In this document: one piece after another, positions 21,752-35,691 of the stretch
Layout of the letters: every line of letters starts with the position of its first letter
How positions within the stretch are numbered: position 1 is the first letter of the stretch
Assembly (NCBI GenBank): GCA_903906315.1
Contig: CAIVJW010000132.1
Span: forward strand, 124,001 to 188,000
Origin: an uncultured delta proteobacterium
Lineage (GTDB): Bacteria > Myxococcota_A > Polyangia > Polyangiales > Polyangiaceae
Direction of reading: 5' to 3'
Length of the DNA: 64,000 nucleotides
Program-made: the position numbers and the translations under genes
The notes under the pieces: generated by a model
What the model was told of the DNA's origin: nothing
Databases searched by the model: none
The model's input: only the letters and a program-made list of their open reading frames with translations

Positions 21752-23908
21752 TCAGGTGCGCTCGACGGCGATCACACCGGGGATCTTCTGCAGGCGCCGG
21801 ATGACGCTCTTGAGCTGCGCGAGGTCCGAGCAGAGGAACGTGAACGTGTTGGTCGCACGCCCGTCGTCGCCGGCGCGGCAGGTGGCCTCGCTGATGTTGA
21901 TGCCCTGCTCGTGGAACGTGTGTCCGACGGTGGCGAGGATGCCCGGGCGGTTCGCGGTCATGACCTTGAGCTCGACCGGGCGGTTGATCTTCGCCTTCGC
22001 GTCCCACGAGATCTCGACGCGGCGTTCCGGGTCCGTGTCGAAGGCCTTGGTGCAGTTGCGGCGGTGGACGGTGATGCCGCGGCCGCGGGTGATGAAGCCG
22101 ACGATCTCGTCGCCCGGCAGCGGGTTGCAGCACTTGGTGTAGCGGACGAGGACGTCGTCGATGCCGTTGAGGCGGATGCCCTGCGTGTGGCGGCCGGTGA
22201 CCTTGCGAACGAGCGACTCGATGCGCCCTTCGCGGATGCTCGGCGGCGGCGCCTCGTTGGCCTCCTTCGGCGCGAGGAACTCGACGATCGCCTTCGCCGC
22301 GATCTTGCCGTAGCCGATCGCAACGAAGAGCTCGTCGGCGGAGGAGACGCCGAATTGCTCGATGACCTTGCGCAGATCCTCGGTGGACTTGAGCAGCTTG
22401 GCGAGGCTCAGGCTCGCCTGGTGCATCTCCTTCTCGAGGAGCTCGCGGCCCAGCTTGAGCGACCGGTCGCGCTGCTCGGCGCGGTGGTAGCCGCGGACGT
22501 GCGATCGCGCCCGGCTGGTGACGACGAAGTCGAGCCAGTCCTTCGAGGGATGCTGGTTCGGGTTCGTCATGACCTCGACGAGGTCGCCGTTGCGGAGCTT
22601 GTAGCGGAGCGGGACGATCGCGCCGTTCACGCGCGACCCCGAGCAGTGCTCGCCGACCTGGCTGTGGATCGCGAAGGCGAAGTCGACGGGCGTCGAGCCG
22701 CGCGGGAAGACCCGCACGTCCCCCTTCGGGGTGAAGACGTAGACCTCGTCCTGGAAGAGGTCGACCTTCACGCTCTCGAGGAACTCGGCCGGGTCCTTGA
22801 GGTCCTTCTGGAACTCCATGAGCTGGCGGAGCCAGCCGAAGCGCTCGGCGTCGCGTGGGTCGATGCCGCCCGAGTTGCGCTCCTTGTACTTCCAGTGCGC
22901 GGCGATGCCCGCCTCGGCGACGCGGTGCATGTCGTGCGTGCGGATCTGGATCTCGATGCGCTCGCGGCCGGGACCGATGACCGTCGTGTGGAGCGACTGG
23001 TACATGTTCGGCTTCGGGAGCGCGACGTAGTCCTTGAAGCGCCCAGGGATCGGCGTCCACTGCGAGTGCATGACGCCGAGTGAGGCGTAGCAATCGCTGA
23101 CCGTCTCGACGAGCACGCGGAACGCGATCACGTCGTAGACCTGGTCGAAGTCGGACTGCTGCGCCTGCATCTTGCGCCAGATCGAGTAGAGGTGCTTGGC
23201 GCGACCGGTCACGTCGCAGGCGAAGCCTTGCTCGTTCAGCTTCGCGGCGATGAGGCGCGAGGTGTCGATGATGTAGTCGTCGCGCTTGCCCTTGGACGTG
23301 GCGATCTTGCGGCTCAGGTCGGCGTACGCATCGGGCTCGACGTACTTGAACGCGAGGTCCTCGAGCTCGCTCTTGAAGCGCGCGATGCCGAGGCGGTTCG
23401 CGAGGGGCGCGTAGATCTCCATCGTCTCGCGCGCGATGCGGTCCTGCGCCTCGGGCTTCATGAACTCGAGCGTCCGCATGTTGTCGAGGCGGTCGCAGAG
23501 CTTCACGAGCAGGACGCGGATGTCCCGCGCCATGGCCACCAGCATCTTGCGGAAGTTCTCCGCCTGCCGGTCCTCCTTCGAGGCGAAGTTGATCTTCGAG
23601 AGCTTGGTGACGCCGTCGACGAGGAACGCGACCTCCTGGCCGAAGTCGCGCTCGATGTCGTCGACGGTCGCGAGCGTGTCCTCGACGACGTCGTGAAGCA
23701 ACCCGGCGCAGACGCTCGCCGTGTCGAGCTTCAGCTCGGCGATGATGCCGGCGACGCTGACCGGGTGGCAGAAGTACGGCTCGCCGCTCTTGCGGACCTG
23801 GCCCTCGTGGGCCTTCTTGCTAGAGTCGTACGCTCTCGCGATGAGGTCGAGGTCCGCACCCGGCTGATATGCGCGAACCCGGTCGACGAGCTCGGTGACG
23901 GAAAGCAT
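21752..23908 (-). CDS. rel: Bifunctional (p)ppGpp synthetase/hydrolase
   Basis: Makes and degrades the alarmone (p)ppGpp. The 718-aa protein starts at ATG 23908. The hydrolase HD domain is intact (His48 in YFCHP, His72-Asp73 in LLHDVVEDT). The synthetase domain has YDVIAFRVLV and YQSLHTTVIGPG. Then come the TGS domain (EVYVFTPKGDVRVFPRG), a helical region, the conserved-cysteine segment RYTKCCNPLPGD and a C-terminal ACT domain. With both catalytic sites intact, it is the long bifunctional Rel/SpoT type. It is divergent from hemW across a 105-bp gap. Confidence 0.97.
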   Translation of the reverse strand: MLSVTELVDRVRAYQPGADLDLIARAYDSSKKAHEGQVRKSGEPYFCHPVSVAGIIAELKLDTASVCAGLLHDVVEDTLATVDDIERDFGQEVAFLVDGVTKLSKINFASKEDRQAENFRKMLVAMARDIRVLLVKLCDRLDNMRTLEFMKPEAQDRIARETMEIYAPLANRLGIARFKSELEDLAFKYVEPDAYADLSRKIATSKGKRDDYIIDTSRLIAAKLNEQGFACDVTGRAKHLYSIWRKMQAQQSDFDQVYDVIAFRVLVETVSDCYASLGVMHSQWTPIPGRFKDYVALPKPNMYQSLHTTVIGPGRERIEIQIRTHDMHRVAEAGIAAHWKYKERNSGGIDPRDAERFGWLRQLMEFQKDLKDPAEFLESVKVDLFQDEVYVFTPKGDVRVFPRGSTPVDFAFAIHSQVGEHCSGSRVNGAIVPLRYKLRNGDLVEVMTNPNQHPSKDWLDFVVTSRARSHVRGYHRAEQRDRSLKLGRELLEKEMHQASLSLAKLLKSTEDLRKVIEQFGVSSADELFVAIGYGKIAAKAIVEFLAPKEANEAPPPSIREGRIESLVRKVTGRHTQGIRLNGIDDVLVRYTKCCNPLPGDEIVGFITRGRGITVHRRNCTKAFDTDPERRVEISWDAKAKINRPVELKVMTANRPGILATVGHTFHEQGINISEATCRAGDDGRATNTFTFLCSDLAQLKSVIRRLQKIPGVIAVERT

Positions 23909-24013
23909 TCGCGATTCGTGTCGACGTCGGCCCAGCTCCGCGAGGTTGCGGGGCGACGCGTCCTCTTCTTGAAACGCTAACACCCCGCACGAACCCTCGC
24001 AAATCCGTCGCCG

Positions 24014-25243
24014 ATGATCGCCCCCGCAGCGACGTTCCCGGTCCCACCCGCCGCCCCGATCGGCGTCTACGTCCACTTCCCCTTCTGCCTGAAGAAGTGC
24101 CCGTATTGCGACTTCGTGTCGTACGCGCGCGACCGCGCCGCGATCGATCACGAGGGCTACGCCGACGCGGTGCTCGCCGAGCTCGACCGACGCGCCGAGG
24201 TGCTCCGCGATCGGGAGCTCGTGACGGTATTCTTCGGTGGCGGCACGCCCTCGCTCTGGGAGCCGCGCGCGCTCGGCCGCGTGCTGGCAGGAGTGCGTCG
24301 GGCCGCGAGCCGGCAAGCCGACGAGGTCGAGGTCACGGTCGAGTGCAATCCGAGCTCGCTCGACGAAGCACGCGCCCGCGCACTGATCGACGTCGGCGTC
24401 GATCGCTTGAGCATCGGGGTGCAGGGGCTCGACGCGGGGCGCCTCGCGTTTCTCGGGCGGCTGCACGACCCCGAGGGCGGGCTCGCGGCGGTGGAAGCGG
24501 CCATCCGGGCCGGCGTGCCGCGCGTTTCCGCGGACCTCATCTACGGCGTCGCGGGCGGGGCGCCGGCCGAGCAGACCGCGCGCGAGAGCGCGGACGAGGC
24601 GCGGCGGCTGGCCGAGACGGGGGTGACGCACGTGTCCGCCTACGGGCTGACGGTCGAGGCGGGCACGCAGTTCGGCGAGCTCGCGCGGCGCGGGCGTCTA
24701 CCCATCGCGACGGACGACGCGCAGGCCGACGGCTTCGCGGCCGTCGAGGAGGCGCTGGGCGGCGCGGGGCTCGCGCACTACGAGGTGTCGAACTTCGCTC
24801 GCCCAGGGCACGAGGCTCGGCACAACCTCGGCTACTGGCGCGGTCACGACTACCTCGGGCTCGGGTGCGCTGCGGTCGGCGCCGTCACGGGGTACGCCGA
24901 GGCCTCGGGGCTCGCGCACCATGCGGCGCGATGGCGCAACTGGGTCGATCCGGCCCGGTACGTCCAGGCGGCGCTCGGCGACGCGGCGCTCGGCGACGCG
25001 GGTGAGCTGCTCGACCCCGAGACGCGGCTCCGCGAGCGGATCATGCTCGGGCTGCGGCTCGGCGACGGGCTCGATCTGGGGGTTGCGGCGCGGTCGCTCG
25101 GGCTCGAGCCCTGGACGGCGGCGCGACGGAGGGCCGCCGAGCGCCTGGCCGCGGCCGGGCGGCTCGCGGTCGAGGGCGATCACCTGCGGGTGACGCGCGC
25201 TGGCTGGGTGTTCGCGGACGGCACCGCGGCGGCGCTCTTCTAG
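24014..25243 (+). CDS. hemW: HemW-like radical SAM heme chaperone
   Basis: A 409-aa radical SAM protein of the HemN/HemW family. The [4Fe-4S] motif CLKKCPYC (Cys25, Cys29, Cys32) is followed by FFGGGTPS and ECNPSS. The short N-terminus and length fit HemW, a heme-binding chaperone for respiratory enzymes, rather than coproporphyrinogen dehydrogenase HemN. A duplicated AALGDAALGDAG near residue 320 is a local repeat. The gene ends in a tandem palindrome shared with the convergent PEGA gene. A heme role suits the respiratory gene clusters elsewhere in the window, though that link is only thematic. Confidence 0.92.
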   Translation: MIAPAATFPVPPAAPIGVYVHFPFCLKKCPYCDFVSYARDRAAIDHEGYADAVLAELDRRAEVLRDRELVTVFFGGGTPSLWEPRALGRVLAGVRRAASRQADEVEVTVECNPSSLDEARARALIDVGVDRLSIGVQGLDAGRLAFLGRLHDPEGGLAAVEAAIRAGVPRVSADLIYGVAGGAPAEQTARESADEARRLAETGVTHVSAYGLTVEAGTQFGELARRGRLPIATDDAQADGFAAVEEALGGAGLAHYEVSNFARPGHEARHNLGYWRGHDYLGLGCAAVGAVTGYAEASGLAHHAARWRNWVDPARYVQAALGDAALGDAGELLDPETRLRERIMLGLRLGDGLDLGVAARSLGLEPWTAARRRAAERLAAAGRLAVEGDHLRVTRAGWVFADGTAAALF

Positions 25244-25258
25244 AAGCTCTTCTAGAAG
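25235..25258. repeat. Tandem palindromic 12-bp repeat over two convergent stop codons
   Basis: CTCTTCTAGAAG occurs twice head to tail (25235-25246 and 25247-25258). Each copy contains the self-complementary CTTCTAGAAG, so the pair can fold as one hairpin. The first copy holds the hemW TAG stop (25241-25243) and the second holds the TAG stop of the convergent PEGA gene (25252-25254 on the other strand). It probably works as a compact two-way terminator. Confidence 0.85.
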
Positions 25259-26499
25259 CGGGCCGTGAGCGCGCCCCCGACGAAGCCGGGTGAAATCAGT
25301 GGCACGGCCGACATCTCGAGCGCCGGCGGGGCGGCGGGAGCCTCGGCGGGCGCCGGGCGGGCGGGCTTCTCGTCGCGCGCGAGGGCCGGCGCGAGCTTGG
25401 GCTGATCGAAAGCGAAGAGGACCAGGCCGGTCGCCGCGACGACCGCCCCGGCGCCGAAGGCGATGCCGGCGGCTCGCCTCCAGGTCTCGCGCTGGTCGAG
25501 CGATCGGTTGTAGTCGTCGAGTTGCTGGCCGGTGATGTTGCCGGATGCGCGGGCGTCGTCGATCTCGCGCGCGGATCGCTGTGCGCCGAGCGCGAGTCCG
25601 GTGAGTACCCCGCCGACCACGAGGCCGCCCGCGCCGATCGACATGAGCGCGTAGGAGGCGTAGCGCTGGCCGGTCGTCTCGAGCCGCACGTCGAGGCGGC
25701 GCTCCTCGCCGCGGGCGAGGTCGACCTCGACGCTGTACGCGCGGGATCCGTTGCGGACCACGGTGACGAGGTGTCGTCCCGAGGGGAGCTCGATCGGCGC
25801 GCTGAGCGGCGCGCTCCCGGCGGGGCGACCATCGACGGAGACCTGCGCCCCGGAGGCGGCGTTCACGCTCACGCGCGCGGGCCGCTCGCGGAGGGGGATG
25901 TCGACCGCGACGAGGCTGCCGTCGGCCGCGAGCACCTCGCGCTCCTCGGAGAAGAAGCCGGTGGCCTCGATGCGCACCGTGTGCTTGCCCGGCTTCACGT
26001 CGCCGATCAGCGGAGCATCGCTGGGGGCGGCGCCGTCGAGCGTCACGCGGGCGCCTCTCGTCTGCGAGGAGACCATGAGACGGGTCGGTGCCTTGACCTC
26101 GCCTGCGGGAGCAGCCGGCGCGGGGTCGAGGCGACCGGCGATGGGCTCGAGCTCCGCGAGCGCGGCGGCGGCGTCCGCGCGTCGCCCTCCCTGCTCGACC
26201 TTGGTGATGTAGTCGCGGTAGAGCCGGAGGGCCTCGCGAAGGTGATCGGGGCGCCGGTCGAGGTAGTACTGGCGGCGGTGAGCCTGAGCGACCGAAAACA
26301 GGATCGCGGGCTTGGGCGCGAGACGGTACGCCTGCTCGAAGGCCTGGATCGCGGCGTTGAAGCTGCCCGCCTCGAAGGCCTGGGCGCCGGCGTTGAAGTA
26401 CGTCTTGGCTTGCGCCAGCGCGGCCGCGTCGTCGGCCACGGCGGGGCGAGCGAGCGCGATCACGGTGGCGGCTGCGGCGGCGAGCTGTGCGCGTCTCAC
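25252..26499 (-). CDS. TPR/PEGA domain membrane protein
   Basis: A 415-aa envelope protein. A signal-like N-terminus (to about residue 22) precedes a TPR-type helical region (AKTYFNAGAQAFEAGSFNAA and on, to about 120). Then come two PEGA domains (about 141-205 and 208-273, with VTLDGAAPSDAPLIGDVKPGKH and VSVDGRPAGSAPL). Two C-terminal membrane spans follow at 283-307 and 343-364, joined by a charged helix. The GTG start overlaps the upstream FG-GAP gene by GTGA. It is the third gene of the kinase operon, so a role in sensing or building the envelope under kinase control is possible, by inference. Confidence 0.87.
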   Translation of the reverse strand: MRRAQLAAAAATVIALARPAVADDAAALAQAKTYFNAGAQAFEAGSFNAAIQAFEQAYRLAPKPAILFSVAQAHRRQYYLDRRPDHLREALRLYRDYITKVEQGGRRADAAAALAELEPIAGRLDPAPAAPAGEVKAPTRLMVSSQTRGARVTLDGAAPSDAPLIGDVKPGKHTVRIEATGFFSEEREVLAADGSLVAVDIPLRERPARVSVNAASGAQVSVDGRPAGSAPLSAPIELPSGRHLVTVVRNGSRAYSVEVDLARGEERRLDVRLETTGQRYASYALMSIGAGGLVVGGVLTGLALGAQRSAREIDDARASGNITGQQLDDYNRSLDQRETWRRAAGIAFGAGAVVAATGLVLFAFDQPKLAPALARDEKPARPAPAEAPAAPPALEMSAVPLISPGFVGGALTARF

Positions 26500-29117
26500 T
26501 GGACCTCCGGGCGGGCACGGTACACGTGGAGCCCGGCGGCGTCGGCGATGGCCAGGTCCTGCAGGCCGTCTCCGTCGATGTCCGTGGCGACGCAGTCGAC
26601 GCCTCCCTCGAGGGCGTCGGTATTCGTCTCGAACAGCTTCCTGGTCGACGAGACCTGACGTGTCGCCCGGTCGATCTTGACGACGTAGGCGCCACCTGCG
26701 AGGAGGACGGTGACCTGCCCCGCGGCGTCGCGATCGGTGCGGAGGCACGCCACGCTCGTCAACCGACCGTCGTCGCCCGCCGCCGTCGTCGAGGCGGTCG
26801 GGTCGGGGTTGGAGATGACGGTCCGCTTCGCGATGTCGAGGTCTCCGGTGCCGTCGTTCCACAGCACGAACGCCGCCCCAGGCGCGTTGCCCGTCGGGGC
26901 GGCCGCGACGACCACGTCGACGAAGCCGTCGCCGTCGACGTCGCAGGGCAACGCGCGCCCCGAGAGCCCATCATCCCGCGCTACCTCCTCACCGATGAGC
27001 TTGGGCTTCCCGAGCGACCACTGATCACCGTCCGGACTCGCGATGATCACGGCGCTCCGCATGCTCGCGTCGTCGCCGCCGTTCCACCGCGTCAGGACGA
27101 CGAGCGAGTCGGCACCGCTCGAAGGGCCCAGGTTCACCGGTACGAGGTGCGTGTCCTTGAGGAGGCCGGAGCCCGCCAGCTCCTTGTTGGGCAAGCCGGG
27201 CACCGAGAGCGAGGCCGCCTCCGTGGCGGGCAGGAGCCACAGCGCGAACGCCGACGGTTTGTTTCCCGCGACCGCCACGTCCAAGTGATCGCGGCCTCCG
27301 GAGAAGTGTCCCGTCACGACGTGTTGAGGGACCGAGATGTGGCGGCGCGTGCTCTCGTTCGGTGTGTCGGTGTAGATGGCGAAGGGCGATTCGAGCAGGC
27401 GACTCGAGTTGCCGGAGAAGAATGACAGCCGAGACGTCGTCGTCGCCTCGTACGAGTACGAGACGACGACCAGGTCGGTGATCGCGTCGACCGGGTCGTT
27501 CGCCCCCTGTCCGGCCTGCAGCGTGTTCTGGGCAGCGATCTGGCCGATCGTGTCGAGCCGCCCGAACGAGATGGGCAGGCCGGGTGGACCCGCAGGTTGG
27601 CCGAAGAGGATCGAGAGTGAATCGCCGCCGACCTCGAAGCTCCCGCGCTCGCTTACGGCGAGGTCGTTCACGAGATCGCCGTCGAAGTCGCCGACCGTTA
27701 ACTGCGTCGGCGCGCCGGTCGTCGGGACCTTGGCGTAGGCGAAGCGCCCAGCGCCGGCGCCGTTGTAGAAGTCGAGCCCCGCCGACGTGGACACCGACGC
27801 GACGACGTCGGAGATGCCGTTGCCGTTGAGGTCGACGATGACCGCCTGGTCCCAGGCCGTGCCTTGAGGCGGAGCGATCGCCGGGTGCCTGACTACGCCC
27901 TGCTCGATGACGCTCACGTGGACGCCGGACGAATCGACGAAGTCGAGCACGCCGTCGTCGTTCAGGTGGCCCACCGCGAGCGGGCTAAGGATCGTTTCGC
28001 TCGCGTAGGGGATCGCGGTCTGCGGCTTCGATGGGCCCTCCCCCGGCGGTGCGGTCGCGAACGTACCGTCCCCCTGCCCGTACGCGACGGCGATGCCCCG
28101 CTGCCCGCCGGTCTTGGTCCAGATCACGAGGTCGAGTTTGTCGTCGGGGTCCACGCGGTACGCGATGACGCCACCTCCGTCGTCGACCACGGCACCTTCG
28201 GGCAACGCGATCGGCTTCCCGATGCGATTGCCCGCCGGTTTGCATGGCGCGAGGAGGGCCACGGAAGTGGCTTTCCGCCACGCGAGAGCGACCTCCTGGC
28301 ACGAGAGGGTCGGATCGAACGAGCCCACTCCGTAGCGCGGGGCGAGGTCCTTCACGTTTTGCGGGAGCGGTGCGATCGGCATCGCCTTCTGGCCGGCGCG
28401 CGCGAGCAGCGCGGTCGAGCCCGTCAGCGCGAGCGTCTCGTCACCGGACAAGCTGGAGTCGGCGTCGATCGGGACGAGGATGACCGTGCCGGCGAGGTCC
28501 GTCGAGTAGGCGATCGGTGACAGCGACCGATCGGCGCTGCCCTCGAGGACGCCGAGCCCCGCTTCGAGCGGCTGAACGATGTCGTCGATGCCGTCCTGGG
28601 TGAGGTCGCCGATGGCGGGGATGGCCGCTTGCGCAGGGATCCGGGTGGTCTTCACGCCGACCCCCGTCGGATCGAAGTAGCTCACCGAAAGGCCCGCGCT
28701 GCCGACACCGAGCAGGTCGCCGCGACGGTCGCCGTCGAAGTCGCCGGCCATGAGGCGCAGCACCGCCCCGTCGACGTTCGGCCCCCAGGTGTCGAAGACC
28801 CCCGAGGGCGCGCGGCACAGGCCGTCCTGGCCGCAGCCCATGCTGGACGGGCACGCGCTGCCGGCGGCGCTGCAGTCGAGGCGGCACTCGCCGATCGACC
28901 CTTTGGGGCGGCACGCGGCCGAGCCCTGCGCGAAGTCGTCGCAGTCCTCCCCGCGCTCCGGCTCGACCACGCCGTTGCCGCAACGGCCGGTCTCGAGGGG
29001 TTGCAGGTCTGCGCAGGCGCCCTGCGTGGCGGCCAGGAGCAGCGCGGCGACGCCCCGGAAGGCCGCGACGCCGCGGCGGGAGCGGCGGCGCTGGGCGCCG
29101 GATCGGTCGAAGCTCAT
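26496..29117 (-). CDS. Large secreted FG-GAP/VCBS repeat protein, probable lipoprotein
   Basis: An 873-aa exported protein. After a basic N-terminus and hydrophobic stretch, the sequence QGAC gives a candidate lipid-anchor Cys35 (a poor lipobox). Residues 46-95 form a myxobacterial-type Cys-rich module starting CGNGVVEPERGEDCDD. The rest is built of FG-GAP/VCBS units of the form GDFDGDxxxDL, DLNGNGISDV and DVDGDGFVDV, pointing to a calcium-stabilised seven-bladed beta-propeller like integrin alpha heads. ATGA overlap with the kinase gene and GTGA overlap with the PEGA gene show tight coupling. A ligand is unknown. Confidence 0.87.
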   Translation of the reverse strand: MSFDRSGAQRRRSRRGVAAFRGVAALLLAATQGACADLQPLETGRCGNGVVEPERGEDCDDFAQGSAACRPKGSIGECRLDCSAAGSACPSSMGCGQDGLCRAPSGVFDTWGPNVDGAVLRLMAGDFDGDRRGDLLGVGSAGLSVSYFDPTGVGVKTTRIPAQAAIPAIGDLTQDGIDDIVQPLEAGLGVLEGSADRSLSPIAYSTDLAGTVILVPIDADSSLSGDETLALTGSTALLARAGQKAMPIAPLPQNVKDLAPRYGVGSFDPTLSCQEVALAWRKATSVALLAPCKPAGNRIGKPIALPEGAVVDDGGGVIAYRVDPDDKLDLVIWTKTGGQRGIAVAYGQGDGTFATAPPGEGPSKPQTAIPYASETILSPLAVGHLNDDGVLDFVDSSGVHVSVIEQGVVRHPAIAPPQGTAWDQAVIVDLNGNGISDVVASVSTSAGLDFYNGAGAGRFAYAKVPTTGAPTQLTVGDFDGDLVNDLAVSERGSFEVGGDSLSILFGQPAGPPGLPISFGRLDTIGQIAAQNTLQAGQGANDPVDAITDLVVVSYSYEATTTSRLSFFSGNSSRLLESPFAIYTDTPNESTRRHISVPQHVVTGHFSGGRDHLDVAVAGNKPSAFALWLLPATEAASLSVPGLPNKELAGSGLLKDTHLVPVNLGPSSGADSLVVLTRWNGGDDASMRSAVIIASPDGDQWSLGKPKLIGEEVARDDGLSGRALPCDVDGDGFVDVVVAAAPTGNAPGAAFVLWNDGTGDLDIAKRTVISNPDPTASTTAAGDDGRLTSVACLRTDRDAAGQVTVLLAGGAYVVKIDRATRQVSSTRKLFETNTDALEGGVDCVATDIDGDGLQDLAIADAAGLHVYRARPEVQ

Positions 29118-30775
29118 TGGAACGGGTTCTCCAGCTCTCCGTGGCCAGTGCTCCTCGCGGCAGGCTTGCCGAGGGCGGCCGCCTTTGCCGGGGGCGGCGC
29201 GAAGAGCTCCTTGTCCTTCGAGGGTATGACGGGGAGATCGCGCGGCAGGAAGCCTGCGGCCTTCAGGGTCAGCGTGAGCTCCTTGTCGTCCCGCTTGAGG
29301 CGGACCGGCCCGGGAGCCGCACCCAGCCGCTCCGCGCCGAGGAATATCTCGGTGCCGGGCGGCTCCGCGGCGACCGTGATGGCCACCTCCCCGCCGGGCT
29401 CGGGGGTGACCGCGGGCGTGGAGTTCGCCGGGGACGCGGCGCTGGCGGTCGAGGCCGCGCTCGGCGCGACGACGGGGAGCTGAGCGTTCGCGTTCCGCGG
29501 GGGGACGGCGTCCGGACCGGCCGCAACGTCGCGAGGCGGGCGCCCAATGCCGAAGGCCGCCGTGACGAGGACGCCGACCGCGACCGCTGCGACCCCGACG
29601 AAGAGCGTCGTGGCGCGGCCCTTCGTCGCGGCGGTCGGGAGCGCGGAGGCGTCCGGTCCCGCGACGCTGCCGGCGGTGCCGCTGGCGCCGGTCGCGCCGA
29701 GCACGGTGCGCGCCTCCGCGAGCGCGCCGGTGTCGCCGGGCGTCTTCCGGCTGGACGCCGAGAGGTCGCCGGTGCGACGCCCGTCGGGCTTCAGCGCGAC
29801 GACCCGCACCGCGTAGCCCGCCCCGGAGGCGGCCTGCGCCAGCGCCTCGAGGCCGGCGCCGAGCGACTCGGGGCGCGCATCCGGGCTCTTCTCGAGCATG
29901 CGGAGCACGGGCGCGTCGAGGGCGGTCGCGAGCCCGGGCAGCACCGAGGACATCGCCGGCGCAGGCGACGCGGTTTGCTTGAAGAGGAGGTCGACGAGGG
30001 TCTCACCGTCGAAGGGGAGCTGCCCGGTGAGCGTCAGGTGCACCATGATCCCGAACGAGTAGATGTCGGTGCGAAGATCGATGTTCTGCCCGCGGCACTG
30101 TTCGGGCGACATGTAGTGCGGCGTGCCCATCGGCGTGCCGGTGCGCGTCCGGTGGCCGCTCATGGCACCGTCGCCCATGAGCTTTGCGATGCCGAAGTCG
30201 AGGAGCTTCGGGACTGGGGTGCCCTCGTCGTCGAAGCTCAGGAACACGTTCTCGGGCTTGAGGTCACGGTGCGCGATGCCCGCCGAGTGCGCGGCGTCGA
30301 GCGCGCGCGCGACCTGGCGCAGGATCGGGATGGCCTCCTCGGGAGGGAGCGCTCCGCGCCGCTCGAGGTAGGCGTCGAGCGTCTCGCCCTCGAGCAGCTC
30401 CATCACGTAGTACTGGCGCCCGTCGTCCAGGGCGCCAAACGAGAAGATGTCGATGATGCCCTTGTGGCGGATCTGGTTGACCGCTCGCGCCTCGGCGATG
30501 AAGCGCGACACCATCTGCGGGTTCGACGACCACTGCCGGTTCAGGACCTTGACCGCCGCCCGCTTGCCGATGAGCGGGTGCACGCTCGCGTACACCGATC
30601 CGAAGCCACCCTCGCCGATCTTCGACTCGACGCGGTACTCACCGACCATGCGGCCGGGCTCCAGGTCGGCGTCCGCGTTGGCGAAGGCTTCGTCGGGCAA
30701 CAGCCCCTCGCCGTCGTCCTCGCAGTGAGTGGATTCAGGCGGGTAACGCCTACGGCATGTGGGACAGGTCGCCAT
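29114..30775 (-). CDS. Ser/Thr protein kinase with zinc-ribbon N-terminus and membrane span
   Basis: A 553-aa Hanks-type kinase. A short zinc-ribbon-like start CPTCRRRYPPESTHC precedes the kinase domain (about 47-315): GEGGFG loop at 54-59, Lys76, HRDLKPEN with catalytic Asp171, DFG at 193-195 and a SPE motif. All key residues are present, so it should be active. A single membrane span lies at 389-410, and an outside domain resembling PEGA follows (VAITVAAEPPGTEIFLGAERLG). The kinase is cytosolic with an extracytoplasmic sensor. It heads a three-gene unit with overlapping stops and starts, and is divergent from a TPR gene 149 bp away. Confidence 0.96.
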   Translation of the reverse strand: MATCPTCRRRYPPESTHCEDDGEGLLPDEAFANADADLEPGRMVGEYRVESKIGEGGFGSVYASVHPLIGKRAAVKVLNRQWSSNPQMVSRFIAEARAVNQIRHKGIIDIFSFGALDDGRQYYVMELLEGETLDAYLERRGALPPEEAIPILRQVARALDAAHSAGIAHRDLKPENVFLSFDDEGTPVPKLLDFGIAKLMGDGAMSGHRTRTGTPMGTPHYMSPEQCRGQNIDLRTDIYSFGIMVHLTLTGQLPFDGETLVDLLFKQTASPAPAMSSVLPGLATALDAPVLRMLEKSPDARPESLGAGLEALAQAASGAGYAVRVVALKPDGRRTGDLSASSRKTPGDTGALAEARTVLGATGASGTAGSVAGPDASALPTAATKGRATTLFVGVAAVAVGVLVTAAFGIGRPPRDVAAGPDAVPPRNANAQLPVVAPSAASTASAASPANSTPAVTPEPGGEVAITVAAEPPGTEIFLGAERLGAAPGPVRLKRDDKELTLTLKAAGFLPRDLPVIPSKDKELFAPPPAKAAALGKPAARSTGHGELENPFQ

Positions 30776-30924
30776 TTCGTCGCGGGAGCGTCGTGGGGAC
30801 GCGGCGGAAGCATATCCGAGGCTCGCGCGAGCGCCAGAACGGGCGGCTGTTCGTTTGCGGCCTCCGGTCGCGGCGGTTACTCTCTCGTCGCGATCGAGCC
30901 CCGCGACGACGACACGAGATCCCC

Positions 30925-31596
30925 TTGCGTCCGCCTGAAGCTGCCACCGCCCTTCGCTTCGCGTTCGCCCTCCTGGTCGCGGCCGGCGTGGTCCTTGGGA
31001 CCGCTTCCGACGTGCGGGCCGAGACGAACTGGGCGACGCTCCAGGCGATCGAGATGACGCGCCAGGGAAGCGAACATGCGGCCCGGGGCGACGGATCGGT
31101 GGGCGTTCGGCGCTTCCTCGAGGCGATCGCGTTCGACCCGACGTACGCGCCGGCCTACCTCGCCCTCGGCGAGCTGCACGAGGCGAGCGGCGACCCGGCC
31201 GAGGCCGAGCGCGCGTACTCGATGGGGATCGACCACGTCGGGCGGTGGGCGGGCGGGCTGCGCGCGCGCGCCAAGCTGCGGGCGCGTTCGAGCCGGCTGA
31301 CCGAAGCGATCGCCGATCTCGAGGCCGCGGCCGACGTCGAGCCGGAGGACGCCGCGCTCCTGCTCGAGCTCGAGGAGGCGTACGTCGCGAATCGGGCGCT
31401 CGTCGCAGCGCTCGCGGTCGCGCGACGTCGCGAGTCCCTCGCCTCGAAGCAGGGGGAGCGGCCAGCCATGGCCGAGGCGCGCGTGCGCGTGCGAGCGCTG
31501 GCCACGCTCGTGGGCGACGTCGACCCCGTGGCCGCGTGGGCGCGCGAGCGCGGGCTCGTGCGCAGCGCGCTCGCGCGCCATGCCCGGCGCCGCTGA
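30925..31596 (+). CDS. Secreted TPR protein, start uncertain
   Basis: A TPR protein of about 223 aa. With the TTG at 30925 as start, a clear signal peptide (ALRFAFALLVAAGVVLG ... RA) appears at the N-terminus, which is why it is chosen. An upstream in-frame ATG would add 56 Arg-rich residues and hide it. Two or three TPR units follow (FLEAIAFDPTYAPAYLALGELHEASGD and YSMGI), then helical Glu/Ala repeats. It is divergent from the kinase operon and 52 bp upstream of the prenyl synthase gene. A periplasmic scaffold role is likely, but no partner can be named. Confidence 0.72.
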   Translation: MRPPEAATALRFAFALLVAAGVVLGTASDVRAETNWATLQAIEMTRQGSEHAARGDGSVGVRRFLEAIAFDPTYAPAYLALGELHEASGDPAEAERAYSMGIDHVGRWAGGLRARAKLRARSSRLTEAIADLEAAADVEPEDAALLLELEEAYVANRALVAALAVARRRESLASKQGERPAMAEARVRVRALATLVGDVDPVAAWARERGLVRSALARHARRR

Positions 31597-31648: not shown

Positions 31649-32737
31649 ATGCCGAGCGCGCGACCTGGTTTCGCGGGGGGTCACGCGGCCGACGCCTTCG
31701 CCGCAATGACGGCCGAGGTGAGGCCCGAGGTCGAGCGTCGCCTCGCGCGCTCGTGGGCACGCGAGATCCGGGCGCTGAAGAATCGCGGCGGTGAGGTCGT
31801 CGCGATGGCGAACGCCGCGCGCGATCTGACGATGCGCGGGGGCAAGCGGTTCCGCGCGGTCCTGGTCGTGGCGGCGCACCTCGGCGTCGCCCCGCGGGCG
31901 CGGCTCGACCCGGCGCTCGACGCGGGTGCGGCGTTCGAGCTGCTGCAGACCTACTTGCTCGTGCAAGATGACTGGATCGACGGCGACGCCACGCGGCGCG
32001 GTGGCCCCAGCGTGCACGCCGCGTTGCGGGGCGTCCTCGGCGACGAACGGCTCGGCGACGTGTCCGCGATCCTCGCGAGCGATCTCACCTGGGGGCTCGC
32101 GGTGCGGACGCTGGCCGCGGTCGACGCGCCCGCCGCGCGCGTGCTGGCCGCGGTGGACCTGCTCATGGCGGTGCACCGCGACGTCGTCGTGGGTCAGCAG
32201 CTCGACGTCCTGGGTCGCGCCGAGGACGTGGAACAGATGCATGCGCTCAAGACGGGCAGCTACACGGTGCGCGGTCCGCTCTTGCTCGGCGCGACGCTCG
32301 CGGGCGCGCCCAGGGCCACGCTGCAGGCGATCGAGCGCTTCGCGGCCCCGCTCGGCGTGGCGTTCCAGCTCCGCGACGATCTGCTCGGCGCGTTCGGCAC
32401 GGCCGCGGAGACGGGCAAGCCGATCGGGGGCGACCTGCGCACCGGCAAGCGTACGGCCGTCCTCGCCGAGGCGGACGGGCGCGTCGACGCCGCGGGGCGC
32501 GAGGCGATCGCGCGCGCGCTCGGGCGGGCCTCCGCGACCGACGACGACGTGCGCGAGGCGACCGCGGCGCTCGAGGCCTCGGGCGCACGTGCGGCGGTGA
32601 CGGCGCGCCTCGCGGCGCTGTGCGATCGTTCGGTCGCCGCAGCCGCGAGGCTCCCGCTGTCGGCGCGCGCGCGGGCCGTCCTCGCGGGAGCGGCCGACGC
32701 CCTGCGCTGGCCGCCGATCACGCGAGGCGCGGCGTGA
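31649..32737 (+). CDS. Polyprenyl (farnesyl/geranylgeranyl) diphosphate synthase
   Basis: Condenses IPP with allylic diphosphates. The 362-aa all-helical protein has RGGKRFRAV at 63-71, a first Asp-rich motif DDWID at 107-111, and a second motif DDLLGAFG at 243-250 with the GGDLRTGKRT signature common in E-type synthases. Chain length cannot be set from sequence alone. It opens the isoprenoid operon and overlaps mevalonate kinase by GTGA, so enzymes from mevalonate to prenyl diphosphate are made together. A TAGGCT hexamer 10 nt before the ATG may be the promoter -10, which would make the mRNA nearly leaderless. Confidence 0.93.
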   Translation: MPSARPGFAGGHAADAFAAMTAEVRPEVERRLARSWAREIRALKNRGGEVVAMANAARDLTMRGGKRFRAVLVVAAHLGVAPRARLDPALDAGAAFELLQTYLLVQDDWIDGDATRRGGPSVHAALRGVLGDERLGDVSAILASDLTWGLAVRTLAAVDAPAARVLAAVDLLMAVHRDVVVGQQLDVLGRAEDVEQMHALKTGSYTVRGPLLLGATLAGAPRATLQAIERFAAPLGVAFQLRDDLLGAFGTAAETGKPIGGDLRTGKRTAVLAEADGRVDAAGREAIARALGRASATDDDVREATAALEASGARAAVTARLAALCDRSVAAAARLPLSARARAVLAGAADALRWPPITRGAA

Positions 32738-33702
32738 CCGCGACGGCGCACGCACCGGGCAAGGTGATCCTCCTCGGCGAGCACGCGGTCGTCTACGGGC
32801 GCCCGGCGCTCGTGGCCGCGATCGACCGCGGTGCGCGGGCGACCGCGGGGCTCGCGGCGCGGGGCTTCCCGAGCCAGCTCACCGTCCTCGGGCGCAGCTT
32901 CGACGCGGATCCGGGCGGGCACGAGGACCTCGCCCGCGCGTTCGCCGCGTTGCTCGCGCCGGCGGGCGGCGGTGCGGCGGCGACGCGGAATGTCGTCGTC
33001 GACGCATCGAGCGAGCTTCCTCCCGGCGGCGGCCTCGGCAGCTCGGCGGCCCTCGGCGTCGCGATCGCGCGCGCGGTCTGTGCGGTCGTCGACGGCGACG
33101 CGATCGAGCCCTCCGTGATCGCGCGGGCGGATGCGTGGGAGCGGGTGTTCCACGGCAATCCGTCCGGCATCGACACGGCGGCGTCGGTGCGCGGCGGCTG
33201 CCTGCGCTTCGTGCGCGGAGCTGGCGCGACGGACGCGACGCTGGCGCGCGAGCTGCGGCTCTGCGTCGGCTGGAGTGGTCGTTCGTCGTCGACCCGCGTG
33301 ATGGTGGAGCGCGTCGCGGCGCTGCGCGAGCGCGACGCCGATCGAGTCGACCGCGACCTCGACGCCATCGCCGCGCTCGTCGAGGGGGCGGTCGTCGCCC
33401 TGTCCGCAGGAGACCTCGCCGCCCTCGGTGAGCGAATGGACCGCAACCAGTCCTTGCTAGGCGGGCTCGGCGTGTCGACGCCCGCGATCGAGGCCATGTG
33501 CGACGCGGCGCGCGGGGCGGGCGCGCTGGGAGCCAAGCTCACGGGCGCAGGCGGCGGTGGCTCGGTGATCGCGCTCCTGCGGTCGAGCGACGACGGCGGC
33601 GACGATCCCGCGGCAGGCGAGGCGGTCCTCGACGCGTGGCGCGCCGCAGGATTCGACGGGTTCGTCACGCGCGTCCGGCGTGGCGCCGCGGAGGTCCGAT
33701 GA
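32734..33702 (+). CDS. mvk: Mevalonate kinase
   Basis: A GHMP-superfamily kinase of 322 aa that phosphorylates mevalonate. It begins at GTG with APGKVILLGEHAVVYGRPAL, the hallmark of mevalonate kinase. The ATP loop is PPGGGLGSSA (97-106), the catalytic Asp147 lies in NPSGID, and the third motif is LTGAGGGGS near the C-terminus. It overlaps the prenyl synthase upstream (GTGA) and the decarboxylase downstream (ATGA). All three GHMP proteins of the cluster share motifs, but only this one has the GEHAVV start. Confidence 0.95.
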   Translation: MTATAHAPGKVILLGEHAVVYGRPALVAAIDRGARATAGLAARGFPSQLTVLGRSFDADPGGHEDLARAFAALLAPAGGGAAATRNVVVDASSELPPGGGLGSSAALGVAIARAVCAVVDGDAIEPSVIARADAWERVFHGNPSGIDTAASVRGGCLRFVRGAGATDATLARELRLCVGWSGRSSSTRVMVERVAALRERDADRVDRDLDAIAALVEGAVVALSAGDLAALGERMDRNQSLLGGLGVSTPAIEAMCDAARGAGALGAKLTGAGGGGSVIALLRSSDDGGDDPAAGEAVLDAWRAAGFDGFVTRVRRGAAEVR

Positions 33703-34727
33703 ACGCGACGGGACGCAGTGAGGATCGCGGACCAGGCTTCGCAGAGGCGATCGCACACCCGAACATCGCGCTCGCCAAGTACTGGGGCAAGCGCGATGAC
33801 GGCGATCGACTGCCTGCGGTGCCGAGCCTTTCGGTCACCCTCGCGGGCATGCTGACGCGTACGCGCGTGCGGTTCGACGCCGCGCTCGACGCCGCTGAGC
33901 TCGTGATTGGCGGCGCCCAGGCGTCCGTCGGGGCCACCGCGCGAGTGGCGGCGCTGCTCGACCGGGTGCGCAGCGCGTCCGGCCGCCTCGAGCGCGCGCG
34001 CGTCGAGAGCGCGAACGACTTCCCCACCGCTTCGGGCCTCGCCTCGAGCGCCTCGGCCTTCGCGGCGCTGGCCGCAGCAGCGACCGCAGCCGCCGGGCTC
34101 TCGTGGTCCGCGGCGCGGGTGAGCGACCTGGCGCGCCGCAGCTCGGTCTCGGCTGCACGATCGGTGCTCGGTGGCTACGTCGAGCTTCCCGCCGGCCGCG
34201 CGGGCGATCTCGAGCTCCCCGCCCTGCCCGTCGCCTCGTCCGATCACCTCGATCTCCGCATCGTCGTGGCGGTGACCCGAGAAGGGCCGAAGGACATCGG
34301 TTCGACCGAGGGCATGTTGCACACGACCAGGACCAGCCCGTTCTACGCCGCGTGGGTGGCTCATGCGCCCTCGCTGTGCGCGCGCGTTCGCGACGCCGTC
34401 CTGGCCCGCGATCTCGAGGCGCTCGGCGCCGCGGCCGAGGAGAGCGCGCTTTGCATGCACGCCTCCGCCATCGCTGCGGCTCCGGGCCTGATCTACTGGA
34501 CGGGAGCGACGGTCGAAGCGATCGCCGAGGTGCGCCGGCTCCGCGCGCGTGGCCTGGCCGCGTGGGCGACGATCGACGCGGGGCCCCACGTGAAGGTCAT
34601 CACCACGCCCGCCGACGAGGACGCCGTCACGCGCGCGATCGCCGGGGTGCCTGGCGTGTTGCGTACGATCGCGACCCGCCCCGGTCCGGGGGCGACGGTG
34701 GTCGCCGGGGCGCCGGCGGAGCGCTGA
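33699..34727 (+). CDS. mvaD: Diphosphomevalonate decarboxylase
   Basis: Converts mevalonate diphosphate to isopentenyl diphosphate with ATP. The 342-aa protein has HPNIALAKYWGKRD, the family signature, the SANDFPTASGLASSASAFAA phosphate-binding stretch, and RSSVSAARSVLGGYVEL in place of the common GSGSACRSxxGGF. The start ATG overlaps the mvk stop (ATGA), and the stop is one base before the next ATG. The GPKDIGSTEGM segment is also typical. It is the clearest sign that the cluster makes IPP through mevalonate. Confidence 0.95.
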   Translation: MNATGRSEDRGPGFAEAIAHPNIALAKYWGKRDDGDRLPAVPSLSVTLAGMLTRTRVRFDAALDAAELVIGGAQASVGATARVAALLDRVRSASGRLERARVESANDFPTASGLASSASAFAALAAAATAAAGLSWSAARVSDLARRSSVSAARSVLGGYVELPAGRAGDLELPALPVASSDHLDLRIVVAVTREGPKDIGSTEGMLHTTRTSPFYAAWVAHAPSLCARVRDAVLARDLEALGAAAEESALCMHASAIAAAPGLIYWTGATVEAIAEVRRLRARGLAAWATIDAGPHVKVITTPADEDAVTRAIAGVPGVLRTIATRPGPGATVVAGAPAER

Positions 34728-34728
34728 C

Positions 34729-35691
34729 ATGCCCGGCGTCGCGCGCGCTCCTGGGAAACTGGTGCTTTCCGGCGCTTACTCGGTGCTCGAGGGGGCGCCC
34801 GCGATCGTCGCGGCGGTCGATCGGTTCGCGACCGCCGACGCGGGTCGGGCGGCGGACCGCGTGACCGACGAGGTGCGCGCGGCGATCGAGGCCGGCGTGC
34901 TCGAGCGTGCTCCTTGGTTCGATGCGTCGCCGTTGCGCTGCGCTGCGCCGACCGCCGATGACCCGACCGCGACGCGCAAGCTCGGACTCGGCTCGAGCGC
35001 GGCGATCCTCGTGGCATCGATTGCTGCATGCATCGCGGAGGCTCCGCGCGACGAGGGCGCCCTGCGTCGACTGGTCCTCGACCGGGCGCTCGCCGCGCAT
35101 CGCCGCGCTCAGCACGGTGGGAGCGGGGTCGACGTCGCGGCCAGCGTGCACGGCGGCGTCGTCGCGTGCCGCATCCTGGGCCCCGCGTCCTCGGGACCGC
35201 TCGCGCGCACAGGCGACCTCCAGGTGCAGCCACACGCGCTGCCAGCCGCGGTGGTCCTGCGGGTGTTCGCCAGCCGGACCGAGGCCAAGACCTCGACCAT
35301 GCTGGCGCAGGTTCGCGATCACGCACGAGCCCGCGCTGCCGACTACGACCGCGCGATGGCGAGGGCGATCGCGGGCGCCGAGGCCGCCTTGGCGGCGCGC
35401 GACGTCGCCTCGTTCGTCGCCGCGCTAACGTGTCAGGCGCTCGCCCTCGCCGAGCTGGGCCGCGCCGCAGGAGCCCCGATCGTCACGCCCGACGTGGAGC
35501 GCCTGGCGCTCGTCGCCGCAGAGGAAGGCGCCGCGTTCGTCCCGTCGGGGGCAGGTGGCGGCGACATCGCGCTCTACGTCGGTCCGGCCGAGCCCTCCGC
35601 CGAGCTCGTCGCGCGCGCCCTCGAGGAAGGGCTCTACCGGCTCGAGATCGCGGTGGGCGCGCGGGGCGTTCACCGGATGCCAATCGGCTGA
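34729..35691 (+). CDS. Phosphomevalonate kinase (GHMP family)
   Basis: A 320-aa GHMP kinase. APGKLVLSGAYSVLEGAPAI at the start and KLGLGSSAAILV (about 83-94) mark the phosphomevalonate kinase branch. GSGVDVAASVHGG carries the catalytic-region Asp, and PSGAGGGD near the C-terminus is the third motif. It follows mvaD with a 1-bp gap, completing the phosphorylation pair. The assignment depends on context as well as on the KLVLSGAYSV start. There is an 82-bp gap to HMG-CoA reductase. Confidence 0.9.
   Translation: MPGVARAPGKLVLSGAYSVLEGAPAIVAAVDRFATADAGRAADRVTDEVRAAIEAGVLERAPWFDASPLRCAAPTADDPTATRKLGLGSSAAILVASIAACIAEAPRDEGALRRLVLDRALAAHRRAQHGGSGVDVAASVHGGVVACRILGPASSGPLARTGDLQVQPHALPAAVVLRVFASRTEAKTSTMLAQVRDHARARAADYDRAMARAIAGAEAALAARDVASFVAALTCQALALAELGRAAGAPIVTPDVERLALVAAEEGAAFVPSGAGGGDIALYVGPAEPSAELVARALEEGLYRLEIAVGARGVHRMPIG

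Follow-up and report, generated by a model that had tools for sequence, protein, structure and literature searches.

A conserved three-gene unit of Myxococcota encoding a transmembrane Ser/Thr kinase, a predicted double-propeller lipoprotein and a TPR/PEGA protein

Three overlapping genes and their products

In the window, the stretch of 64,000 nucleotides of Polyangiaceae DNA that was analysed, three minus-strand open reading frames are joined by 4-bp overlaps, as an earlier note on this DNA had claimed. The first gene, K (29114-30775, ATG start), encodes a transmembrane Hanks-type Ser/Thr kinase of 553 aa. It is followed by F (26496-29117, ATG start), whose 873-aa product is a predicted lipoprotein with a Cys-rich neck and, according to Pfam and AlphaFold2, a double FG-GAP propeller. 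For the third gene, T (25252-26499, GTG start), the same sources indicate a periplasmic protein of 415 aa with a TPR domain, two PEGA domains and a membrane hairpin. The K stop codon (TGA, 29116-29114) and the F start codon (ATG, 29117-29115) share the sequence ATGA (29114-29117), and the F stop and T start codons share GTGA (26496-26499). An extracytoplasmic part is predicted for all three products, in agreement with the earlier note.

The downstream flank of the unit is a HemW-like gene (24014-25243, plus strand), and the upstream flank is a TPR gene inside a plus-strand open reading frame (30757-31596). Because both flanking genes lie on the opposite strand, the operon consists of exactly K, F and T. 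The HemW-like gene converges on T and is accompanied by a RelA/SpoT-like gene on the minus strand (together 21752-25243). Beyond the upstream flank, a plus-strand run of isoprenoid genes (31649-35691) begins with a polyprenyl synthetase (Pfam, 5.1e-44), after which frames resembling mevalonate kinase, diphosphomevalonate decarboxylase and a further GHMP kinase were recognised by eye.

The catalytic domain of K (residues 47-261, 29993-30637) matches Pfam Pkinase at 2.6e-45 and contains the glycine loop, catalytic Lys, HRD and DFG that mark Hanks-type kinases; GxGxxG, K, HRD, DFG and APE-region residues are invariant across 35 relatives. At the N-terminus there is a zinc-ribbon-like motif, CPTC...C..DG (residues 4-22, 30710-30766), which is present in 31 of 55 unit kinases. 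Hydropathy indicates a single transmembrane span (residues 392-410, 29546-29602), and exactly one was found in 49 of 53 family members. The region outside the membrane contains a PEGA-like domain (residues 463-529, 29189-29389) that was delimited by alignment. The earlier note had called it PEGA-like; Pfam PEGA matches 12 of the 35 close relatives, but the K protein of the window itself stays below the Pfam model. K is not an Stk1/PknB equivalog (NF033483, 265.5 bits vs. a cut-off of 450), has no PASTA match and gave no TPR match in Pfam.

The F protein matches Pfam FG-GAP_3 in four stretches (3.6e-25), and no NCBIfam model was found for it. A signal peptide is followed by a lipid-anchor Cys35 (29013-29117), which is invariant in 65 aligned F proteins, as expected for a lipoprotein; the lipobox of the window protein, TQGAC, is atypical at position -3. 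According to the established +2 rule for lipoprotein sorting, if it also holds in this lineage, Asp at this position leads to retention in the inner membrane. Since only 1 of 83 sequences has Asp at +2, F probably sits in the outer membrane. The best conserved part of F is the Cys-rich neck, CGNGVxExGEDCD ... C (residues 36-103, 28809-29012), with invariant Cys residues 46, 59, 69, 78 and 101; mean conservation is 2.22 bits at residues 35-103 vs. 1.45 bits in the propellers. The remainder (residues 104-873, 26499-28808) was modelled as a double beta-propeller with integrin-alpha-like blades and Asp-rich loops (AlphaFold2, pLDDT 87.2, pTM 0.88). The approximately 56 strands of the model fit two seven-bladed propellers, and blades from both the N- and the C-terminal part make up the propeller to which known folds correspond (model range 104-872). 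These folds were integrin alpha, BBS1/BBS9 and aldos-2-ulose dehydratase, with Z between 24 and 27, and together with the FG-GAP repeats the predicted seven-bladed fold places F among FG-GAP/integrin-alpha-like proteins. Foldseek also gave hits to DDB1 and SF3B3, which, at TM-scores of about 0.2, were read only as a multi-propeller arrangement. The earlier note had described F as an exported propeller; we refine this description, since F is predicted to be a lipoprotein in which two propellers interlock.

T gave a strong PEGA match in two stretches (Pfam, 6.7e-18, 64.8 bits vs. a cut-off of 20.8) and a TPR_2 match, and no NCBIfam model exceeded its cut-off. The AlphaFold2 model is confident (pLDDT 91.7) and begins with a signal peptide. 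It comprises a TPR domain (residues 26-125, 26125-26424), two PEGA domains (residues 140-272, 25684-26082) and a helical hairpin (residues 277-363, 25411-25671), in which hydropathy and the model agree on two C-terminal spans, as predicted earlier. The spans lie in two long helices (277-318 and 324-363). With the signal peptide cleaved, the predicted topology has both ends of T outside and the short loop that joins the spans in the cytoplasm. The model also adds a beta-hairpin after the spans (residues 395-415, 25255-25317), which ends in Phe in 61 of 62 sequences. On a protein whose membrane hairpin is helical, this near-invariant terminal Phe resembles the C-terminal signal of outer-membrane proteins.

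Conservation of the unit and its kinase subfamily

To study conservation, 60 loci were picked for encoding T or F, and more were taken from outside the order; K played no part in the choice. K, F and T were found within 9 kb in 63 loci from 46 genomes and 30 genera, and most loci outside those 63 were cut by contig ends. The order is K-F-T in 50 loci; others have F-T-K, K-T-F, a divergent F or several F copies. The 4-bp overlap of F and T recurs in most loci. The association was also found in further families of the same class and in other parts of the phylum, and some genomes carry multiple copies. Thus, the co-occurrence search that the earlier note had proposed did not find the three families scattered. 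Strong F was detected in 36 of 379 genomes of the phylum, all of which also carry strong T; the F-T pair is present, for example, in Polyangia bacterium Co_bin.42 and Polyangiaceae bacterium LS_FP_2_bin.137. Many genomes within this family lack all three genes, indicating that the module is not essential.

Several loci deviate in the number or form of F. Tandem arrays with up to three F paralogues per single K-T pair were observed in three loci (L109, L110 and L131), which suggests diversification of the sensor. In another locus (L100:4220-6151), a kinase and the end of a propeller share one open frame. It was rejected as a fusion: the kinase domain is cut mid-way, and a deletion or mis-assembly is more likely.

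We then compared the unit kinases with other kinases. This genome contains 149 Pkinase matches at E <= 1e-20. When eight genomes were searched with a K profile, 12 intact kinases scored above 590 bits, and all 12 belong to K-F-T units; the next ordinary kinase scored 383 bits. The lone orphan of the subfamily (516 bits) has an in-frame TGA, its match ends short of the outer end of the profile, and neither F nor T adjoins it. In these eight genomes, kinases of this subfamily were found almost only within K-F-T units. Together with the kept adjacency and the overlapping genes, this supports the view of the earlier note that the three genes form a single functional unit.

Tree-distance correlations were calculated for 62 units, giving 0.83 for F-T, 0.57 for K-T and 0.48 for K-F, each above 1000 permutations. 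They support inheritance as a unit rather than contact, because shared species history contributes to them. Such a shared history, with co-expression, could in principle be all that keeps three genes of separate function together. In its favour, some genomes of this family keep the surroundings of the unit: RelA/SpoT and HemW genes, which are present on one side of the unit in the window, also flank it at L062, L065, L087, L091 and L093. The distribution over 30 genera and other families, the several gene orders and the multiple copies per genome stand against this explanation, which we regard as very improbable; neutral synteny was dismissed since the set survives rearrangement across families. 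When antisense shadow frames and local synteny were set aside, the only further families that recurred near the unit were loosely linked histidine-kinase and FHA/sigma54-like ones, and no cytosolic partner was found encoded with the unit.

The propeller, in turn, can be exchanged. In one genome (G428), the F slot next to K-T is taken by a lipoprotein whose Cys-rich neck is of the same kind as in F (DUF4215-type) but whose propeller is NHL/SGL-like, not FG-GAP, a swap that fits the expectation for an exchangeable sensor. NHL/SGL-like propeller lipoproteins with a DUF4215 neck occupy the F slot of divergent K-T units at L141:5309-7852 and L144:7102-10056.

Elsewhere in the phylum, in other families, transmembrane kinases are often the neighbours of more distant T relatives, and F was not detected beside these pairs. 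This arrangement was observed at L185, L190, L191, L194, L198, L200 and L202, where some kinases end in [LIM][ND]P[FW]. Some further kinases of this genome also adjoin a T-like gene. K-T may therefore be the older association, which propeller lipoproteins joined later.

Tail, groove and the proposed route of the signal

After about 200 weakly conserved residues, K ends in a short motif, ELENPF (residues 547-552, 29120-29137), which is the only strongly conserved stretch in this part of the protein. Its L and E columns are as conserved as the kinase core, and in most K members the tail has the form [DE]LE(x)PF. Of 75 unit K proteins, 52 carry the pattern [DE][LIV][ESPQ] within their final 14 aa, as do 3 of 28 other kinases from this genome; the counts are not independent, since unit kinases share ancestry. 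Several kinases beside the distant T relatives have tails such as DLMNPF, DIIDPF and DILDPF. In this genome, two further kinases, L006 and L179, end in the tail-like sequences VVDPWGG and VIDPWG, and no T-like gene was found beside either in the short flanking stretch examined. The comparison of tail-bearing kinases with adjoining T-like genes gave a mixed result, in part owing to short flanks; the link between tail and T is not strict.

The most conserved candidate binding surface of T is the peptide groove of its TPR domain, with F35, F42, F68, Q72 and R75 conserved in the alignment. Positions 2, 5, 9, 12 and 13, which bind ligands in known TPR proteins, were taken as ligand-facing; their conservation (3.01 bits) equals that of structural positions (2.99 bits) and exceeds that of other positions (2.18 bits). 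Structural neighbours of the domain include peptide-binding TPRs. Together with the conservation of the ligand-facing positions, this suggests that the groove holds one conserved peptide ligand, for which the K tail is a candidate. The Lys/Asn/Asn/Lys/Arg residues of the classical carboxylate clamp were not seen in the T groove in a hand alignment.

Based on these data, we propose that K, F and T form one envelope-spanning receptor-kinase module in which F senses, T couples and K phosphorylates, and we assign this reading a probability of roughly 0.6. F, probably an outer-membrane lipoprotein, would bind an extracytoplasmic ligand or surface with its double propeller, and its Cys-rich neck would connect it to the rest of the module. 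T would be anchored in the inner membrane by the two-helix hairpin, and its TPR and PEGA domains in the periplasm would couple F to K. K is predicted to cross the inner membrane once, with the kinase domain inside and the PEGA domain and the short conserved tail outside. Occupied F would alter the T-K complex, possibly via the TPR groove of T gripping the C-terminal tail of K. K would then dimerise, autophosphorylate and phosphorylate cytosolic targets.

The earlier note had the propeller sensed through PEGA domains. Read in this way, F would bind the outer PEGA domain of the kinase directly, and T would be an accessory periplasmic or cell-wall anchor. Most K members do have an outer PEGA-like domain, and PEGA-type folds can bind, the PEGA of T matching a 77-residue chain (9k1u_D) of the RtkS-PpkA crystal structure. 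In the unit kinases of L092, L099, L106 and L109, however, PEGA is not recognisable in the outer region while the C-terminal tail stays, and among the pairs K-F shows the weakest distance correlation. We consider direct binding of F to the kinase PEGA unlikely. A chain from F through T to K is at least as likely as this contact, because PEGA-less unit kinases keep the tail, the T groove is conserved and F is tied closest to T.

The close tie of F and T also fits another explanation. These two could form the principal complex, such as a scaffold positioning or displaying F at the envelope, and K could regulate in response to the assembly or stress of that complex, not as a receptor for an F ligand. 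F and T are the tightest pair by both gene overlap and distance correlation, K changes place within the unit (FTK, KTF, divergent), and the terminal Phe of the T beta-hairpin recalls outer-membrane assembly signals. Against this, the kinase subfamily hardly occurs apart from the unit, the K-T pairing is also old judging from the distant T relatives that adjoin kinases with no F detected, and the propeller type was swapped while K and T stayed. We hold an F-T scaffold watched by K to be rather improbable, and clearly less probable than the receptor-kinase module.

Extending the receptor-kinase module further, we tentatively suggest a class of three-part receptor kinases in part of the Myxococcota, with an exchangeable FG-GAP or NHL propeller lipoprotein, a T groove holding the K tail, and the tail, not PEGA, as key contact. 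We see this broader proposal as possible, with the odds against it.

Novelty and comparison with known systems

The K-F-T unit is real and previously unnamed, and it most likely relays a signal from a lipid-anchored double-propeller protein, located outside the inner membrane, to a kinase inside the cell. A full-text literature search, with subscription journals mostly outside its reach, found no paper describing the combination, in line with the earlier note, whose author knew of no named system with this composition. In myxobacterial-type genomes, Ser/Thr kinases number from one to several hundred, and what stimuli activate bacterial kinases is described as a question still outstanding (PMC6069109). 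For the subfamily of K, genomics provides a tie to two specific partners outside the cytoplasm, and the short tail motif and the peptide groove yield direct predictions. The unit is a concrete entry point to the input of a whole kinase clade. If the broader proposal is true, a separate sensor would switch the kinase from outside, and the tail instead of PEGA would be the key contact.

A precedent is the GlnH-GlnX-PknG system of Corynebacterium and Mycobacterium, whose Ser/Thr kinase is controlled by two products of the same putative operon, one a lipoprotein and the other a membrane protein (PMC9769921). It is similar in its three clustered genes for an extracytoplasmic lipoprotein, a membrane protein and a Ser/Thr kinase. 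The route of the signal from lipoprotein via membrane protein to kinase corresponds to the one that we propose for K-F-T. The components differ: GlnH is a solute-binding protein, whereas F is an FG-GAP propeller; GlnX, unlike T, is not a TPR/PEGA protein; and PknG is soluble with its own TPR, whereas K spans the membrane once and gave no TPR match. The two systems also belong to different phyla.

In type VI secretion, the envelope proteins TagQRST and RtkS act on the periplasmic part of the kinase PpkA, and RtkS binds this periplasmic domain and promotes the stability and activity of PpkA (PMC6082577). PpkA, like K, is a membrane-spanning Ser/Thr kinase, and the PEGA of T resembles the chain from the RtkS-PpkA structure. 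In contrast, the linkage to secretion and Fha genes that marks the PpkA pathway was not seen, as no neighbour family of this sort recurs in the unit loci. As far as compared, the input proteins show no sequence relation, the partners of K being a double propeller and a TPR/PEGA protein. The K-F-T unit thus falls into neither the GlnH-GlnX-PknG nor the PpkA system.

The PASTA kinases PknB and Stk1 share with K the succession of kinase domain, single span and extracytoplasmic repeat domain, but K has a PEGA-like domain instead of PASTA. F shares the seven-bladed FG-GAP fold and the Asp-rich loops with the integrin alpha headpiece (Z about 24), and differs in being a predicted lipoprotein of bacterial origin, in which two propellers interlock and the neck is rich in Cys. 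Finally, kinases of Planctomycetota and Myxobacteria with periplasmic WD40 or TPR domains (PMC11032199) likewise link a cytosolic kinase to a periplasmic propeller or TPR. In those kinases the parts are fused in one chain, whereas in K-F-T they are three separate proteins.
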